A DNA stretch of 11,305 nucleotides from an uncultured Solimonas sp. GTDB lineage: Bacteria; Pseudomonadota; Gammaproteobacteria; Nevskiales; Nevskiaceae. Each line of letters starts with the position of its first letter. Position 1 is the first letter of the stretch. Location of the stretch: contig CAMLDZ010000104.1 in the NCBI GenBank assembly GCA_946478985.1, forward strand, positions 1 through 11,305, in the 5' to 3' direction. The notes beneath the pieces were generated by a model. It saw only the letters and a program-made list of their open reading frames with translations. It did not search any database and was not told where the DNA came from. Below, one piece after another: positions 5,592-11,305 of the stretch. The translations under genes and the position numbers were made by a program.

Positions 5592-7232
5592 GTGAAGCCG
5601 ATCATCGCCCCCCTCGATGTCAAGGCATGCTGGCGACTGGCCTGGCGCGCGGTGTTGTGCGTGCTGCTGGTATCGGCGCCCACGCTGCTGCTGGGTAACA
5701 GCGTCGACCATCCCCTCAATCCTGATGTTCTGCTTGCCGTACTGGCCTGCGCGGCGCTGGCCTCCGTATGGCGCGCGCGGCTGGCGATGCCGTGCGCGCT
5801 GTTGCTGACGGCGCTGCTGTTGTTGCGGCTCGCCGAGGCCGGCACGCAGCAGGCACTGGCACGGTCTTTCAATCTGGCGATGGACTGGCAGCTGGCGGCA
5901 CCGCTGCATGACCTGCTGCGCCGTAATCTGGGGCCGCCGGCATACCTCGTGGAGCTCGGCGTCGCATTGGGCCTGGCGGTGCTGACATGGATACTGGCGC
6001 AGCTGCTGCGCCGTCCAGCTCCGCGCAGCGCTGGCTGGTTGCTGCTGCCATGGCTGGGCGTGACCCTGATGTGGCCGCAGCAAGCGGCACCGTTGCTGTC
6101 GGCCGGCGCGACGCAGCTGCAGCGTGGCCTCGCGACCTGGCAGGAGCGTCGCCGTTTCGAGCCGACGCTGGCCGACGATCCGCTGGCGGCGATCGCCGAC
6201 ACCGATCTGTTCTCGGCGCTGCGCGGGGTTGACGTAATCGTCGCCTTCGTCGAGTCCTATGGCGCCGACACGCTCGACGATCCGCTGCACGCCGCGCAGG
6301 TCCGTGCCGAACTCGACAGCTGGCCGCAGCGCTTCGCCGCGCAAGGTCTTGCGGTGGCCAGTGCGCGATTCACGTCGCCGGTGCAGGGCGGCCAGTCCTG
6401 GTTGCCGCAAACCACGCTGCTCAGCGGCCGCTGGATCGACAGCCCGTTGCGCTACGCGCTGATCACCCGCGAAGGCCGCCAGCCCGGCATGCTGCCCCGC
6501 GATTTCGCACGTGCCGGCCATGACAGCATCGCGATCCGGCCGGCCAATGTGATGGCCTGGCTGGAGGCACCGGCGTACGGCTACGGCAAGATCATCGACG
6601 CCGCGGCCAGCGGCTATCGCGGGCCGGCGTTCAATTGGGTGACGATGCCGGACCAGTACACCTGGTCGCGGCTGCAGCGCGAGCGCGAACGCGAACGCGG
6701 CGGACGCGCGCGCTACATCGACGTCGCGCTGCTCAGCAGTCATGCGCCGTGGACGCCGATCCTGCCGCTGCTCGACGACTGGTCGCAGATCGGCGATGGC
6801 AGCGTCTACGCGCAGTGGGCGGGCAGCGGCGAATCACCCGACCAGCTGTGGCAGGACCCCGCGCGCGTGCGCGAGCACTACGCGATGGCGCTGCACTACT
6901 CGCTGGCGGTGATCGGTGCCTATGTTCAGCGCCATGTCGATGCGCACAGCCTGTTGATCGTGCTCGGCGATCATCCGGCGGCGCCGCTGGTCACCGGCGG
7001 CCCGCAGCACGAGGTGCCGATGCATGTGATCAGCGGCGATCCGGCGCTGGTGCAGCGTTTCATCGATGCCGGCTTCAGCGCCGGCAGCATCCCGCCGCAA
7101 CGCAAGACGGCGCCGCCGCTGAGTGCCTTCCGCAGCTGGTTCGCGAATGCCTTCAGCGGCTCAGGCGAGCGGCGCGTGCTGCTGCCGGCCGAGCAGCCAG
7201 ATCAGGTCTCGGCCGAACGAGCAGATCAGTAG
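5592..7232 (+). CDS. Membrane-anchored LtaS/sulfatase-fold (alkaline phosphatase superfamily) enzyme
   Basis: Predicted inner-membrane enzyme with about five N-terminal membrane segments (within residues 18-165) and a large extracytoplasmic alkaline-phosphatase-superfamily domain, the layout of LtaS, OpgB and phosphoethanolamine transferases. Motifs numbered from the chosen start: AFVESYG (E221), comparable to the ESF metal site of LtaS; GGQSWLPQTT (Ser269, or a nearby Thr, as nucleophile candidate); LSSHAPW (H384); and VLGDH (D460/H461), matching the LtaS metal pair. Expected chemistry is transfer or hydrolysis of a phospho- or sulfo-linked group; the substrate is unknown. The frame is open from 5508, but that part crosses the terminator hairpin, so I choose GTG 5592 (546 aa); GTG 5583 is the alternative. 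Its last 72 bp overlap the opposite-strand phosphatidyltransferase gene. A short (R-E) run is encoded by a 6-bp repeat at 6681-6698. Confidence 0.8.
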   Translation: MKPIIAPLDVKACWRLAWRAVLCVLLVSAPTLLLGNSVDHPLNPDVLLAVLACAALASVWRARLAMPCALLLTALLLLRLAEAGTQQALARSFNLAMDWQLAAPLHDLLRRNLGPPAYLVELGVALGLAVLTWILAQLLRRPAPRSAGWLLLPWLGVTLMWPQQAAPLLSAGATQLQRGLATWQERRRFEPTLADDPLAAIADTDLFSALRGVDVIVAFVESYGADTLDDPLHAAQVRAELDSWPQRFAAQGLAVASARFTSPVQGGQSWLPQTTLLSGRWIDSPLRYALITREGRQPGMLPRDFARAGHDSIAIRPANVMAWLEAPAYGYGKIIDAAASGYRGPAFNWVTMPDQYTWSRLQRERERERGGRARYIDVALLSSHAPWTPILPLLDDWSQIGDGSVYAQWAGSGESPDQLWQDPARVREHYAMALHYSLAVIGAYVQRHVDAHSLLIVLGDHPAAPLVTGGPQHEVPMHVISGDPALVQRFIDAGFSAGSIPPQRKTAPPLSAFRSWFANAFSGSGERRVLLPAEQPDQVSAERADQ

Positions 7233-7889
7233 CAGCAGCGCGATCGCCAGCAGCGGCGCGGCGAGCGCCGCCGGTGTCCACGGCGCCAATGCCAGCAGCA
7301 GCGCAGCGAGCTGGATCACGCAGACCAGCTTGGCGAAGAAGCTCGGCGGCACCTCGCCGCGCAGCCGCGGCCACGCCAGGGCCGCAGCCAGCAGCGCGTA
7401 GCGCATCAGGCCGATCGCCAGCACCCAGACGCCGGCACGCGCGCTGAGCCAGCAGGCCAGGCTCATCACCAGCACGAAGAACGCATCGAGTTCCATGTCG
7501 AAGGCCGCGCCGAACGGCGAGGCGGTCTGCGTGTGCCGCGCCACCGCGCCGTCGATGCCGTCGAGCAGCAGCGCCAGCAGGCTCAGCACGCAGCACGGCA
7601 GCGCATGCGCGCGCAGCCATTCCGGCACCACCAGACAGCCGGCAATCGCTGCAATCAGAAGACCGCGCAGATAGGTGAGGCGATTGGCGGGGCCCAGGCC
7701 GCGCAGCGCGCTGCCCGGTGTCCAGAAGCGCAGCACCAGCAGCGCGATGATGGCCGCAACCGCCAGCGCGGCGAGCGTCGCGCCGAGCGGCAGCGACAGC
7801 ATGGTGGCGATGGCCGCCAGCAGCAGCGAACCCGCGCCCAGCTCGACGGCGACGCGCTGTCGCGATTTGCGTAGGCTTGCGCTTTCCAT
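7161..7889 (-). CDS. CDP-alcohol phosphatidyltransferase family protein
   Basis: Integral membrane enzyme that transfers a phospho-group from a CDP-alcohol (CDP-diacylglycerol or similar) to an alcohol such as glycerol-3-phosphate or inositol phosphate. The 242-aa protein is hydrophobic with about six membrane segments and a perfect family signature at residues 110-135: D110, D113-G114, A117-R118, G127, D131 and D135, in the spacing D-x2-DG-x2-AR-x8-G-x3-D-x3-D. The ATG at 7889 is preceded by GGAGAG 11 nt upstream. In-frame extensions to 7976 would run into the divergent MDR gene and are rejected. It has an unusual N-terminal stretch with two extra hydrophobic segments (about 20-55) before the catalytic part. 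It is opposite in strand to its neighbours: 17 bp separate its ATG from that of the MDR gene, and its 3' end overlaps the LtaS-like gene. The acceptor alcohol cannot be told. Confidence 0.9.
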   Translation of the reverse strand: MESASLRKSRQRVAVELGAGSLLLAAIATMLSLPLGATLAALAVAAIIALLVLRFWTPGSALRGLGPANRLTYLRGLLIAAIAGCLVVPEWLRAHALPCCVLSLLALLLDGIDGAVARHTQTASPFGAAFDMELDAFFVLVMSLACWLSARAGVWVLAIGLMRYALLAAALAWPRLRGEVPPSFFAKLVCVIQLAALLLALAPWTPAALAAPLLAIALLLLICSFGRDLIWLLGRQQHAPLA

Positions 7890-7906
7890 CTTTGCTGCCG
7901 CTCTCC

Positions 7907-8887
7907 ATGTCCAAGCGCAAGGCGCGCGCGTTCTGGGTCCTCGCACCCGGCCGTGGTGAAATCCGTGACGAAACACTCGCCGCGCCGCAGCCGGGGCAGG
8001 CGCTGGTGCGCACGCGCTACAGCGGCATCAGCCGCGGCACCGAGAGCCTGGTATTCCAGGGCCGGGTGCCGGCCAGCCAATACACGCTGATGCGGGCGCC
8101 GCACCAGGCCGGCGAATTTCCCGGGCCGCTCAAGTACGGCTACATCAACGTCGGCATGGTAGAGCAGGGGCCGGCCGAATGGTGCGGCCGCCGTGTGTTC
8201 TGCCTGTATCCGCACCAGACCGAATACGTCGTGCCGGTCGAGGCGCTGCTGCCGCTGCCGGACGATCTGCCGGATGCCCGAGCGCTGCTCGCCGCCAACA
8301 TGGAAACCGCGATCAATGCGCTATGGGACGCCGCGCCGCGCGTCGGCGACCGCATCGCCGTGATCGGCGCCGGCGTGCTCGGCACGCTGGTCGCGAGCCT
8401 GGCGGCGCGGATCGCCGGCACGCAGGTGCAGCTGATCGACATCGACCCGGCACGCGCCGCCGTCGCGGCTTCGCTCGGCGTCGGGTTCTGTTTGCCGGAC
8501 GCAGCCGCAGCCGACTGCGATCTGGTGTTCCACGCCAGCGCTTCGGAAGCCGGCTTGCAGCTGGCCTTGCGACTGGCGGGCCTGGAGGCGGAGATCATCG
8601 AGCTGTCGTGGTTCGGCGACCGCAGCGTCGCGCTGCCGCTGGGCGAGGCCTTCCATGCGCGGCGGCTGACGATCCGCGCCAGTCAGGTCGGCCAGGTCTC
8701 GCCGTCGCGCCGCGCGCGCTGGTCTTACTCGCGACGCCTGCAGCTCGCGCTCGAACTGCTGCGCGACGCGCGCTACGACGCGCTGCTGGGCGAGGAATCG
8801 GCGTTCGACGATCTGCCGCAAACGATGGCGCGGCTCGCCGTCACGCCCGGCAGCGCGCTCTGCCATCGCATTCGCTACGAGTCCTGA
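7907..8887 (+). CDS. MDR superfamily oxidoreductase lacking zinc ligands (BchC-like)
   Basis: The 326-aa protein has the medium-chain dehydrogenase/reductase layout: a GroES-like domain (about 1-125), then a Rossmann domain with [10 protein letters not shown] (G154, G156, G159) and LIDID, where Asp178 at the end of the second strand suggests NAD(H) rather than NADP(H). The usual GICGTD zinc Cys is replaced in [10 protein letters not shown] (38-47), and the GHE motif is replaced by KYGYINVG (76-83). The four-Cys structural zinc loop is absent. It therefore probably works without zinc, like BchC-type or quinone-oxidoreductase-type members. The ATG at 7907 gives [15 protein letters not shown]; no Shine-Dalgarno sequence is visible. 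It starts the plus-strand operon and precedes the PTPS-like gene by 22 bp. The substrate is unknown. Database pipelines may call it zinc-binding alcohol dehydrogenase, which the sequence does not support. Confidence 0.85.
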
Positions 8888-8909
8888 AAGTCACCACCGG
8901 AGTTCCTGC

Positions 8910-9314
8910 ATGTTCAGTGTCACCGTCCGCGATCACGTGATGATCGCGCACAGCTTTCGCGGCGAGGTCTTTGGCCCGGCGCAGCGCCTGCACGGCGCCA
9001 CCTATGTGATCGACGTGACGTTCAAGCGCCCCGAACTCGACGCCGACGGTCTGGTGGTCGACATCGGCCTGGCCAGCCGCGCGGTTTCGGCGGTGCTGCG
9101 CGCGTTCGACTACCGCAATCTCGACGACGAGCCGGTGTTCAAGGGCATCAACACCACCACCGAATATCTCGCCAAGTACGTGTTCGACCGCGTGGTCGAC
9201 GCGATCCGCGCCGGTGAAGTCGGCGAGACCGCGCGCGGCCTCACCGCGCTGGCCGTGGTGCTGCGCGAGTCGCACGTCGCCGCCGCCGGCTACGAGGCGG
9301 CGCTGTCGCTGTGA
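8910..9314 (+). CDS. PTPS/QueD-fold protein with degenerate active site
   Basis: The 134-aa protein is a recognisable T-fold homologue of 6-pyruvoyl-tetrahydropterin synthase / 6-carboxytetrahydropterin synthase. By-eye alignment to E. coli QueD: IAHSF (H14) matches AAHRL (zinc H16); [12 protein letters not shown] (21-32) matches GHKCGRLHGHSF, so catalytic Cys27 is Ala24, zinc H31 is His28 and zinc H33 is Ala30; FDYRNLD matches LDHHYLN, so catalytic His71 is Tyr68 while Asp67 is kept; NTTTEYLA matches NPTSEVLA; and LRES (E120) matches the substrate-anchoring Glu. The fold and probable pterin pocket are kept but the known chemistry is lost. The start is firm: GGAG 7 nt before the ATG. It sits 22 bp after the MDR gene and its stop overlaps the first ATG of a chained start region. 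It should not be annotated as queD. Confidence 0.88.
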
Positions 9315-9355
9315 TGTCGCCGCGCTGATGCCCCCGCGCTGATGCCCAGGCTGCA
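9312..9355 (+). repeat. 14-bp tandem repeat with chained TGATG stop/start overlaps
   Basis: Three 14-bp units start at 9314, 9328 and 9342: ATGTCGCCGCGCTG, ATGCCCCCGCGCTG and ATGCCCAGGCTGCA. The third diverges after its first seven bases. The stop of the PTPS-like gene (9312-9314) overlaps ATG 9314. The tiny frame from there (M-S-P-R) ends in a TGA overlapping ATG 9328, and the next (M-P-P-R) ends in a TGA overlapping ATG 9342, the glycosyltransferase start. No Shine-Dalgarno sequence precedes 9342, which fits re-initiation. Confidence 0.7.
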
Positions 9356-10388
9356 TCTGCTGGTACCGGGGCCGCTCGATCGCGCCAGCGGCGGCTCGCG
9401 CTACGACCGCCGCATGGCGCAGGAACTGCGCGCGCTCGGCTGGACGGTCGAGGTCGCCGAACTCGCCGGCGCATTTCCGGATGGCGATGCGCCGGCGCGG
9501 CAGGCGCTGCGGGCCGCGCTCGCCGCGTGCCCGGACGATGCCTGCGTGCTGATCGACGGTCTCGCCGGTTCGGCGCTGCCGGAGCTTCTGGCCGCCGAAG
9601 CGGCGAGGCTGCGGATGCTGCTGCTGATCCATCTGCCGCTGGCCGAAGCGGTCGCGCTGAGCGCGGCGCAGCGCGCCGAGCTGCTGGCGCGCGAAACCCG
9701 CGCGCTGGCGCAGGTGCGCGGCGCCGTTGTCACCAGCCCGTACTCGCGAGGCTGCCTGCTGCGCTACGGCGTCGCGCCGGCACGCATCGCCGTCGTGCAG
9801 CCGGGCACCGATCCGGCGCCGCCTGCGGTAGGTAGCGGCAGCGCAGGGCCGCAACTGCTCTGCGTCGCCGCGGTCAGCGCGCAGAAGGGTCATGACGTGC
9901 TGATCGAAGCGCTCGCGCTGCTGCGCGACCGGGCGTGGACGCTGCGCTGCGTCGGCGCGCTCGATGCCGCGCCGGATTTCGTCGCGAGCCTGCGCGCACG
10001 CATCGCGGCGCTGCGGCTGGCATCGCGCGTGCAGTTCAGCGGCGCGCTGGATCAGGCCGGCGTCGCCGACGCCTACGCGCAGGCCGACCTGTTCGTGCTG
10101 CCGACGCGGCTCGATACCTACGGCATGGTGCTGAGCGAGGCCGCGGTGCGCGGCCTGCCGATCGTCAGCACGCGCAGCGGCGGCATCGCGCAGACGCTGC
10201 CGGCCGATGCCGCGCTGCTGGTGCCGCCGGAGGACGCGCTGGCCCTGGCAGACGCGCTGCGGCGCGTGCTCGATGACGAGGCCTTGCGCGAGGCATTGAG
10301 CAAGGCCGCGCTGCGCGCGCGCTTCGACAGCTGGCCGCAGGCCGCGCAGCGCCTCGCTGCCGCATTGCTGGATCTCGCCGGCGCATGA
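9342..10388 (+). CDS. GT4-family (GT-B fold) glycosyltransferase
   Basis: The 348-aa cytoplasmic or membrane-associated retaining glycosyltransferase of family GT4 transfers a sugar from a nucleotide-sugar donor to a lipid or saccharide acceptor. The N-terminal domain begins HLLVPGPLDRASGGSRYDRR (5-24) with the GG loop typical of GT-B enzymes. The C-terminal donor domain contains AAVSAQKGHDVLIEAL (K182), a strand VQFSGALD, then VLPTRLDTYGMVLSEA. The EX7E motif is present as D258-x7-E266, with Asp replacing the first Glu. GLPIVSTRSGGI follows, as expected for donor binding. The acceptor and sugar are unknown. The ATG at 9342 has no Shine-Dalgarno sequence and lies at the end of the TGATG chain. 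Its stop overlaps the start of the next gene by 4 bp (ATGA), so both are translationally coupled. Confidence 0.9.
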   Translation: MPRLHLLVPGPLDRASGGSRYDRRMAQELRALGWTVEVAELAGAFPDGDAPARQALRAALAACPDDACVLIDGLAGSALPELLAAEAARLRMLLLIHLPLAEAVALSAAQRAELLARETRALAQVRGAVVTSPYSRGCLLRYGVAPARIAVVQPGTDPAPPAVGSGSAGPQLLCVAAVSAQKGHDVLIEALALLRDRAWTLRCVGALDAAPDFVASLRARIAALRLASRVQFSGALDQAGVADAYAQADLFVLPTRLDTYGMVLSEAAVRGLPIVSTRSGGIAQTLPADAALLVPPEDALALADALRRVLDDEALREALSKAALRARFDSWPQAAQRLAAALLDLAGA

Positions 10389-11254
10389 AGCGGCTGCTGC
10401 GCCTGGGCGTAAGCGCAGCGCTGCTCGTCGCGGTGTTCGTTCTTGTCGATCGCGAGCATGTCTTCGCGGCGCTGCGGCAGCTGCCGCCGGCGCTGCTGCT
10501 GCTCGCGCTGGTGCTGGCCGCGGTGCAGATCGCCCTGGCTGCGGCGCGCTGGTCGTACACCGCCGCCCGGCTCGGCGTGCCGCTGCGTTTCATGCGGGCG
10601 TTCGCCGAATGCTACGCCGCCAGTTTCATCAACCAGGTCCTGCCCGGTGGCGTGCTCGGCGATGTCTCCCGTGCCTGGCACCACGCGCGTGCGGTCGATG
10701 CGCGCGGCGCGGCGGTGCGCGCCGTGGTCTTCGAGCGGGTCATGGGCCAGCTGGCGCTGGTATTGGCGACGCTGCTCGCCTGGCTCGCGCAACCGCAGCT
10801 GCTGACGCTGCCCTTGCTGCAGGCCGTGCTGGTCGTGGCACTGGTCTTGTTGCTGGCAGCGGTGTGGCTGCGCCGCCGTCGCCGCGCCGGCTGGCTTGCC
10901 GACACGCTGCGCGATCTGCGCCGCGCCTGGTGGCCGCCGGCTGTGCTGCTGCGGCAGCTGCTGCTGTCGTGGCTGCTGCTGGCGACCTTGCTGCCGGTCT
11001 ACGTGCTCGCCGCGCGCAGTGCCGGCGTGCAGGCCTCGCTGCCGGTGCTGCTGCCGCTGCTGCTGAGCACGCTGCTGGCGATGGCGATCCCGCTCGGCTT
11101 CGCCGGCTGGGGCTGGCGCGAAGGCGCAGCGGCGCTGGCCTGGACCGCCGCCGGCCTGGATCCGGCACAGGGCGTCGCCGCGTCGATGCTCTACGGCGTG
11201 CTGGCGCTGGCCGGCAGCCTGCCGGGGGCGCTGCTGCTGATCCGGCTGCGCTAG
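10385..11254 (+). CDS. UPF0104 / LPG-synthase-type multi-pass membrane protein
   Basis: The 289-aa inner-membrane protein with about eight hydrophobic segments belongs to the family of the MprF flippase/synthase membrane domain (annotated as lysylphosphatidylglycerol synthase TM region or flippase-like). Conserved features are ARWSYTAARLG after the second segment, the signature NQVLPGGVLGDVSRAW (83-98), an ER pair (E117-R118), and GFAGWGWREGA in the C-terminal half. There is no soluble aminoacyl-transferase domain, so it cannot make lysyl-PG itself. In glycolipid clusters such proteins often accompany GT4 enzymes and are thought to help move or present the lipid, but this is not proven. It overlaps the glycosyltransferase gene by 4 bp. 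It is slightly short for the family, and its stop codon lies inside the right repeat motif, so the natural C-terminus may have been altered. Confidence 0.85.
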   Translation: MKRLLRLGVSAALLVAVFVLVDREHVFAALRQLPPALLLLALVLAAVQIALAAARWSYTAARLGVPLRFMRAFAECYAASFINQVLPGGVLGDVSRAWHHARAVDARGAAVRAVVFERVMGQLALVLATLLAWLAQPQLLTLPLLQAVLVVALVLLLAAVWLRRRRRAGWLADTLRDLRRAWWPPAVLLRQLLLSWLLLATLLPVYVLAARSAGVQASLPVLLPLLLSTLLAMAIPLGFAGWGWREGAAALAWTAAGLDPAQGVAASMLYGVLALAGSLPGALLLIRLR

Positions 11255-11270
11255 GGCCTGTTGACACTAT
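11246..11270 (+). repeat. Right copy of 25-bp terminal motif
   Basis: CTGCG followed by CTAGGGCCTGTTGACACTAT. The TAG is the stop codon of the UPF0104 gene. The sequence matches 23 of 25 bases of the minus strand of 61-85. The part after the stop codon, GGCCTGTTGACACTAT, marks a sharp change to AT-rich sequence. From memory, ends of the form GGG-CTGTTGACA occur in IS5/IS427-like elements that insert at TA/CTAG-type sites; I cannot verify that here. Confidence 0.6.
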
Positions 11271-11305
11271 TCAATTACGGTTGTTCTGTTGAATACTTCT
11301 GCGAT
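11255..11305. other. AT-rich right margin, possible mobile element end
   Basis: After the UPF0104 stop, the base composition drops abruptly: 11261-11305 has 16 G/C of 45, against a strongly G/C-rich gene just before. It contains a TTGACA (11261-11266) without a properly spaced -10 box. It also contains a 7-bp inverted repeat, TATTCAA (11268-11274) and TTGAATA (11289-11295), around a 14-nt spacer. No gene is visible before the window ends. Confidence 0.5.

Follow-up and report, generated by a model that had tools for sequence, protein, structure and literature searches.

A PTPS-IV gene cluster conserved across phyla as a candidate route to a GTP-derived glycoconjugate, lipid-anchored in some lineages

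PTPS-IV proteins form a subgroup of the T-fold family of 6-pyruvoyltetrahydropterin synthase (PTPS) and QueD; the structure of one member, SCO6650 (PDB 3d7j), has been solved, and no function for the subgroup was found in the literature. The SCO6650 crystal reportedly contained no zinc, and the protein is said to have a pterin-like pocket and no PTPS activity. Another described system that comes close to the locus reported here is the early riboflavin/F420 route, with its GTP cyclohydrolase II/III, ArfB and RibD reductase. In print, PTPS-IV (AGeNNT cluster 62, COG0720) is characterised by the motif FGPAQ and by PF00925 and RibD_C neighbours, and in the available text of that paper these are the only neighbours named, MDR, GT4, methyltransferase, creatininase and lipid genes not being among them (PMC5445326). 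We describe a PTPS-IV gene (8910-9314, plus strand; PF01242, E 1.5e-23) in an 11,305-nucleotide stretch of DNA from an uncultured Solimonas sp. (contig CAMLDZ010000104.1; hereafter the window), where it lies among six genes that the original prediction had taken for an envelope-lipid pathway. Comparison with relatives shows that the gene belongs to a cluster conserved in three phyla or more. It leads us to a reading that we consider evenly balanced between right and wrong: from GTP the cluster would make a glycosylated compound of diaminopyrimidine or pterin type, joined to lipid and displayed on the envelope where a CDP-alcohol phosphatidyltransferase (CDP-OH) and a UPF0104 membrane protein are present.

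Residues 21-25 of the window protein are FGPAQ, the published PTPS-IV signature, which the cluster thus shares with that subgroup together with, in relatives, the PF00925 and RibD_C neighbours; a search against SCO6650 gave an E value of 5.7e-53. The protein has the T-fold, the glutamate anchor and two of the three zinc histidines in common with 6-pyruvoyltetrahydropterin synthase and QueD, but the third zinc histidine (HGH to HGA) and the catalytic cysteine are alanine in 137/137 sequences, and the Asp-His pair is mostly Asn-Tyr (114/138 and 113/138). These residues rule out a classical PTPS or QueD and bear out the description of a PTPS fold without catalytic residues. The label "degenerate", given to the same protein, is misleading, since the altered site is invariant: FGPA is found in 137/137 sequences, the following Q in 135/137, HGA in 137/137, His14 and His28 in 137/137, and Glu120 in 138/138. 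These counts fit a site that is changed but constrained rather than decayed. Relatives in the different phyla share 48-73% identity with the window protein, that of Hydrocarboniphaga effusa (locus L001) 89%, and at least 8000 homologues at E<=1e-10, not sorted by subfamily, were found in a protein search, so the family is large.

When species genomes were scanned with the PTPS protein, 378 relatives were confirmed, and the best 80 of them were analysed; these are enriched in Lentzea and Actinomadura, and more even draws of genomes were hence added. PTPS matches were found in 27/398 genomes of the phylum of H. effusa, in 9/296 of that of Actinomadura meyerae and in 17/200 of that of a Gemmatimonadetes metagenome-assembled genome (the phylum names Pseudomonadota, Actinomycetota and Gemmatimonadota used here follow these draw centres), as well as in 16/85 genomes of the order of H. 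effusa. Sixty loci around such matches, 49 from the three-phylum draws and 11 from the one order, were fetched and searched with profiles of ten families. The usual order, with losses in places, is CDP-OH (reverse), MDR, PTPS, GT4, methyltransferase, UPF0104, RibD_C (reverse), GTP cyclohydrolase II and creatininase (reverse), with an LtaS-like gene near the cluster whose place and strand vary. Four of these families, namely RibD_C, methyltransferase, GTP cyclohydrolase II and creatininase, were invisible to the original prediction because the window stops 51 bases past UPF0104.

The profile searches placed MDR in 59, GT4 in 58, methyltransferase in 54, RibD_C in 47, CDP-OH and creatininase in 35 each, cyclohydrolase II in 34, UPF0104 in 31 and LtaS-like in 17 of the 60 sampled loci, the corresponding figures among the best 80 of 378 being MDR 80, GT4 76, methyltransferase 74, CDP-OH 71, UPF0104 69, cyclohydrolase II 57, creatininase 54, RibD_C 40 and LtaS-like 37. 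The 60-locus counts take in frames open at locus ends (closed frames only: LtaS-like 15, CDP-OH 33, UPF0104 30), and the cyclohydrolase II count requires half of the model to be covered, a shorter match in L190 (250.8 bits, also found by PF00925) giving 35. Loci below 14 kb were counted, and their absences were excluded from the tree test; L192 is only 3.8 kb long, so its absences carry little meaning. All six window families occur together in 33/80 of the best relatives and in 12/60 sampled loci, and the five other than LtaS-like in 67/80 and 29/60. Twenty random 20-kb regions of the same genomes (one containing 185 N) gave a single GT4 match and none to the other nine families. The linkage of the cluster is far above chance, and the idea that the six families would be linked in other genomes has held across phyla. 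An open-literature search returned no paper describing the cluster, although print elsewhere may still hold one; the earlier view that no such pathway had been described does not hold in full, a PTPS-IV neighbourhood with cyclohydrolase II and RibD_C having been published and the structure of a homologue solved.

MDR lies immediately upstream of PTPS in 52/80 of the best relatives and in 59/60 sampled loci, and 2.5 kb upstream in H. effusa; in Lentzea and its kin (27 of the best 80) it sits beyond PTPS on the opposite strand, at a distance of about 4 kb, and in Actinomadura (L003) the cyclohydrolase lies upstream. In loci L186-L188 the order PTPS, GT4, methyltransferase, UPF0104, creatininase, cyclohydrolase matches SCO6650 to SCO6655 in number, and SCO6655 is listed as a GTP cyclohydrolase II in the available text of PMC2853524. 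Several arrangements depart from the usual one. The otherwise tight pair of MDR and PTPS is parted in H. effusa by a gene on the minus strand (L001:8221-9570), which we presume from its sequence to be HipA-like. Halochromatium and Lamprobacter (L051, L060, L075) have, of the ten families, only adjacent MDR and PTPS-IV genes in the available stretch, L075 having less than 1 kb of downstream sequence. In Pseudonocardia (L034:14019-15350, L036:13815-15194) cyclohydrolase II and RibD_C occupy one frame, with no creatininase in these loci, a natural fusion that links the two steps. A CFA synthase beside 10/11 order-level clusters was dismissed as shared synteny.

In the window, the frames and profile matches recovered all six genes of the original prediction with their close spacing, its layout needing one addition, the minus strand of CDP-OH, which had gone unmentioned; the other five genes are on the plus strand. 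A tight run is formed by the zinc-less MDR oxidoreductase (7907-8887; longest frame from 7877), the PTPS-IV gene 22 bp further on, the GT4-family glycosyltransferase after another 27 bp (9342-10388; PF13692 8.1e-28, PF00534 5.3e-27) and, overlapping the latter by 4 bp, the UPF0104 / LPG_synthase_TM flippase-like membrane protein (10385-11254; PF03706 3e-33, TIGR00374 above cut-off). CDP-OH (7161-7976; PF01066, E 2.6e-16) diverges from MDR. Its frame opens with GTG, the first in-frame ATG being at 7889, which is the likely translation start; 17 bp separate the diverging ATG codons of the two genes. Tail to tail with CDP-OH, on the opposite strand and with a 72-bp overlap (7161-7232), lies the LtaS-like membrane protein (5592-7232; longest frame from 5508), which has N-terminal helices and an alkaline-phosphatase-superfamily headgroup-transferase-like domain. 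The nearest of the genomes seen is that of H. effusa; its locus has RibD_C, placed after UPF0104, and no cyclohydrolase II, and searches found no creatininase and no cluster-type methyltransferase. The set thus looks reduced in the lineage of the window, where the cyclohydrolase would therefore come from elsewhere in the genome.

Pfam scans of example loci matched RibD_C (PF01872, 9.4e-39), GTP_cyclohydro2 (PF00925, 1.1e-56) and Creatininase (PF02633, 6.1e-52), the methyltransferase of the scanned examples giving a weak match below cut-off. Among solved structures, the RibD_C protein of L020 comes closest to a reductase of diamino-ribosylamino-pyrimidinone phosphate (DARPP; 6p8c, 6.7e-25). Against the archaeal TIGR01508 RibD_C reached 96.6 bits, under the cut-off of 186, and is therefore not filed as that equivalog; by sequence the RibD_C proteins of relatives can nevertheless be regarded as DARPP-reductase-like. 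The creatininase, compared with the ArfB deformylase of formamidopyrimidine (FAPy; NF033501, cut-off 180), scored 33.7 bits in L003 and gave no match at 1e-4 in L020. The cluster shares with the early riboflavin/F420 route its cyclohydrolase II, its creatininase fold and a DARPP-reductase-like RibD_C, but the RibD_C proteins scanned here are without a visible deaminase domain, and a second cyclohydrolase II lies outside the cluster in 3/3 checked genomes whose cluster has one (G002, G003, G005). Of the six genomes checked, Thiocapsa has a single cyclohydrolase II and the other five have a pair; G001 and G004 carry the whole pair outside the cluster, which is thus without its own.

This resemblance to deazaflavin and flavin early steps, in the cyclohydrolase, the creatininase fold and the RibD_C reductase alike, could be taken as a sign that the cluster serves cofactor F420, and in the available text of PMC5041015 PTPS-IV is indeed called an F420 protein, on unpublished grounds. 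A further difference from the F420 route, however, is that CofH (TIGR03551) is above cut-off in only 5/27 PTPS-IV genomes; by the CofH test the other 22 make no F420, which mostly refutes the role for bacteria and makes it, in our judgement, hardly credible. That the cluster starts from no GTP precursor at all, MDR and PTPS supplying a small polyol or sugar head group to a phospholipid or glycolipid pathway as first proposed, seems to us very unlikely, given that cyclohydrolase II, RibD_C and creatininase stand in the same cluster of many relatives and that the pterin-anchoring glutamate is invariant.

The cyclohydrolases differ at the position equivalent to Tyr105 of E. coli RibA, where SCO6655 reportedly has Met and, on that account, is said to release FAPy. 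Sixty Actinomycetota cluster copies have His 43 times, Met 10, Tyr 3 and Cys, Leu, Gln and Ser once each; many of them are closely related (Lentzea, Actinomadura) and so do not amount to 60 independent cases. All 56 of the 56 His, Met, Cys, Leu or Gln copies have a creatininase in the locus, which the Ser copy and the three Tyr copies (one on a 3.8-kb contig) have not. Outside Actinomycetota the position is Tyr in 31/31 copies, and a creatininase is present in 22/31, so that a simple FAPy rule, which fits Actinomycetota, does not reach beyond that phylum and was rejected for clusters at large. The proteobacterial cluster cyclohydrolase II of L020 (L020:14422-15618) is 399 residues long and matches PF00925 only at residues 181-347; no Pfam family was matched by its N-terminal half, possibly a DHBP synthase domain that has decayed.

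The MDR protein has been well described as zinc-less: the catalytic zinc cysteine is aligned to serine, and Ser42 occurs in 139/139 sequences with a letter there. Unlike BchC and polyol dehydrogenases, it has this serine, no visible cysteine lobe for a structural zinc, and conserved SRGTE and PHQ motifs; its BchC score is 53.6 bits, far under the cut-off of 291. The predicted model (pLDDT 90.6) has polyol and alcohol dehydrogenases, all tied, as nearest solved folds; this comparison, like that of the LtaS-like model, speaks only to folds listed as matches. The window CDP-OH protein contains the motif D(x)2DG(x)2AR(x)8G(x)3D(x)3D, whose residues are conserved to at least 95% in 107 sequences, and its best NCBIfam match is archaetidylinositol phosphate synthase (31.8 bits against a cut-off of 180).

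For the LtaS-like protein, the proposed LtaS/sulfatase fold stood by the predicted model (pLDDT 81.7), whose PDB matches are LtaS, LtaP, GacH and EptC with plain sulfatases just 2-4 Z lower, but did not reach the Pfam sulfatase cut-off: no Pfam family matched the window protein at E<=0.01, and of three relatives set against Sulfatase PF00884 (cut-off 25 bits) two scored 19-20 bits and the third, cut by a contig end, gave none. E249, S297 and H412 are invariant and D488/H489 nearly so in 15 sequences. By its modelled fold and its metal- and nucleophile-site residues the protein would belong to the LtaS/OpgB/EptA superfamily. It shares with these phospholipid-headgroup transferases the predicted fold, the membrane anchor and the conserved Glu, His and Asp-His, but carries a conserved Ser in the probable nucleophile position, stays below the sulfatase cut-off, and, for the L058 homologue, has no PDB-chain sequence match at E<=1.

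What is constant in the cluster is MDR, PTPS-IV, GT4, methyltransferase and RibD_C, which GTP cyclohydrolase II and creatininase often accompany. Of the 60 loci, 29 have both CDP-OH and UPF0104 and 23 have neither, and the lipid genes are for this reason read as an accessory module whose members tend to appear and vanish together; LtaS-like is missing in 43/60. The envelope connection drawn at the outset is thus retained, but lipid is displaced from its centre. It is possible, though we consider it doubtful, that two separate systems simply adjoin, a core making a soluble glycosylated pyrimidine or pterin and an envelope glycan/lipid set of CDP-OH, UPF0104, LtaS-like and OpgG/MdoH often landing beside it. 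The core stands without CDP-OH and UPF0104 in those 23 loci, including 8/11 of the fetched order-level loci, and the LtaS-like gene, variable in place and strand, changes state 15 times on the tree. Where present, however, CDP-OH (divergent from MDR) and UPF0104 (after the methyltransferase) mostly hold fixed places in three phyla, and they tend to disappear jointly, as in L210 compared with L209 and L212.

Genes for OpgG (opgG, mdoG) and an MdoH-type glucosyltransferase are each found in 15/60 loci, both in 7, and are enriched relative to the random regions; we regard their link to the cluster as a lead. The two adjoin the cluster at L168:2510-5960 and L199:3813-7561, in the Pseudomonadota and Gemmatimonadota draws.

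One could also suppose that the core product is a secondary metabolite or pigment destined for secretion, such as a toxoflavin-like pteridine or azapteridine glycoside exported by UPF0104. Toxoflavin synthesis likewise begins with GTP cyclohydrolase II, the distribution of PTPS matches across the three draws is patchy, and methyltransferase and glycosyltransferase are present in 54/60 and 58/60 loci. This view nevertheless leaves CDP-OH without a part, and the invariant PTPS-IV site and the identity of 48-73% across phyla would better suit a cofactor or a structural component that is conserved, which makes it distinctly unlikely.

Since the constant part, by its families, runs from GTP to methylation and glycosylation, a glycoconjugate that derives from GTP and is anchored to lipid in part of the lineages appears the best account; each of its chemical steps, given here from gene family and position, is to be read as a proposal. 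GTP cyclohydrolase II would open GTP to FAPy in Actinomycetota, with mostly His or Met at the Tyr105 position, and to DARPP in the other phyla, where Tyr is kept; where FAPy arises, the creatininase-fold hydrolase would take off the formyl group. RibD_C would then reduce the ribosyl to a ribityl chain, and the zinc-less MDR, with its polyol-dehydrogenase-like fold, may alter the redox state of the side chain. PTPS-IV, which has lost the zinc site and kept the pterin/guanine-anchoring glutamate, would bind the product and guide cyclisation or side-chain rearrangement, and the methyltransferase and GT4 would decorate it. CDP-OH could place the compound, or its sugar or polyol part, on a phosphatidyl group, the lipid crossing the membrane via UPF0104 and the LtaS-like enzyme moving the phospho-headgroup on the outer side, perhaps onto periplasmic glucans.

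It is tempting to go further and to speculate on a new class of envelope lipid, with a glycosylated pyrimidine or pterin head group cut from GTP, made in several phyla, in which RibD_C reduction and then MDR oxidation replace the Amadori step of GTP cyclohydrolase I, closing or trimming of the ring falls to PTPS-IV, CDP-OH anchors the product and the LtaS-like enzyme passes it to OpgG/MdoH periplasmic glucans; we rate this whole scheme as unlikely. Placed in a cluster of ten families beside GTP-ring-opening enzymes and a lipid module, PTPS-IV gains a concrete series of candidate substrates, and a new class of pterin- or pyrimidine-bearing envelope molecules would be possible in Streptomyces, Lentzea, Thauera, Kushneria and Gemmatimonadetes.

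The final 51 bases of the window (11255-11305) seem lower in G+C content than the preceding genes and could form the border of a mobile element; a plasmid search with bases 11240-11305, bearing on an insertion sequence at this end, returned no match. At the other end, upstream of the six genes, the window carries a tRNA-Ser, dapA (DHDPS) and further genes.

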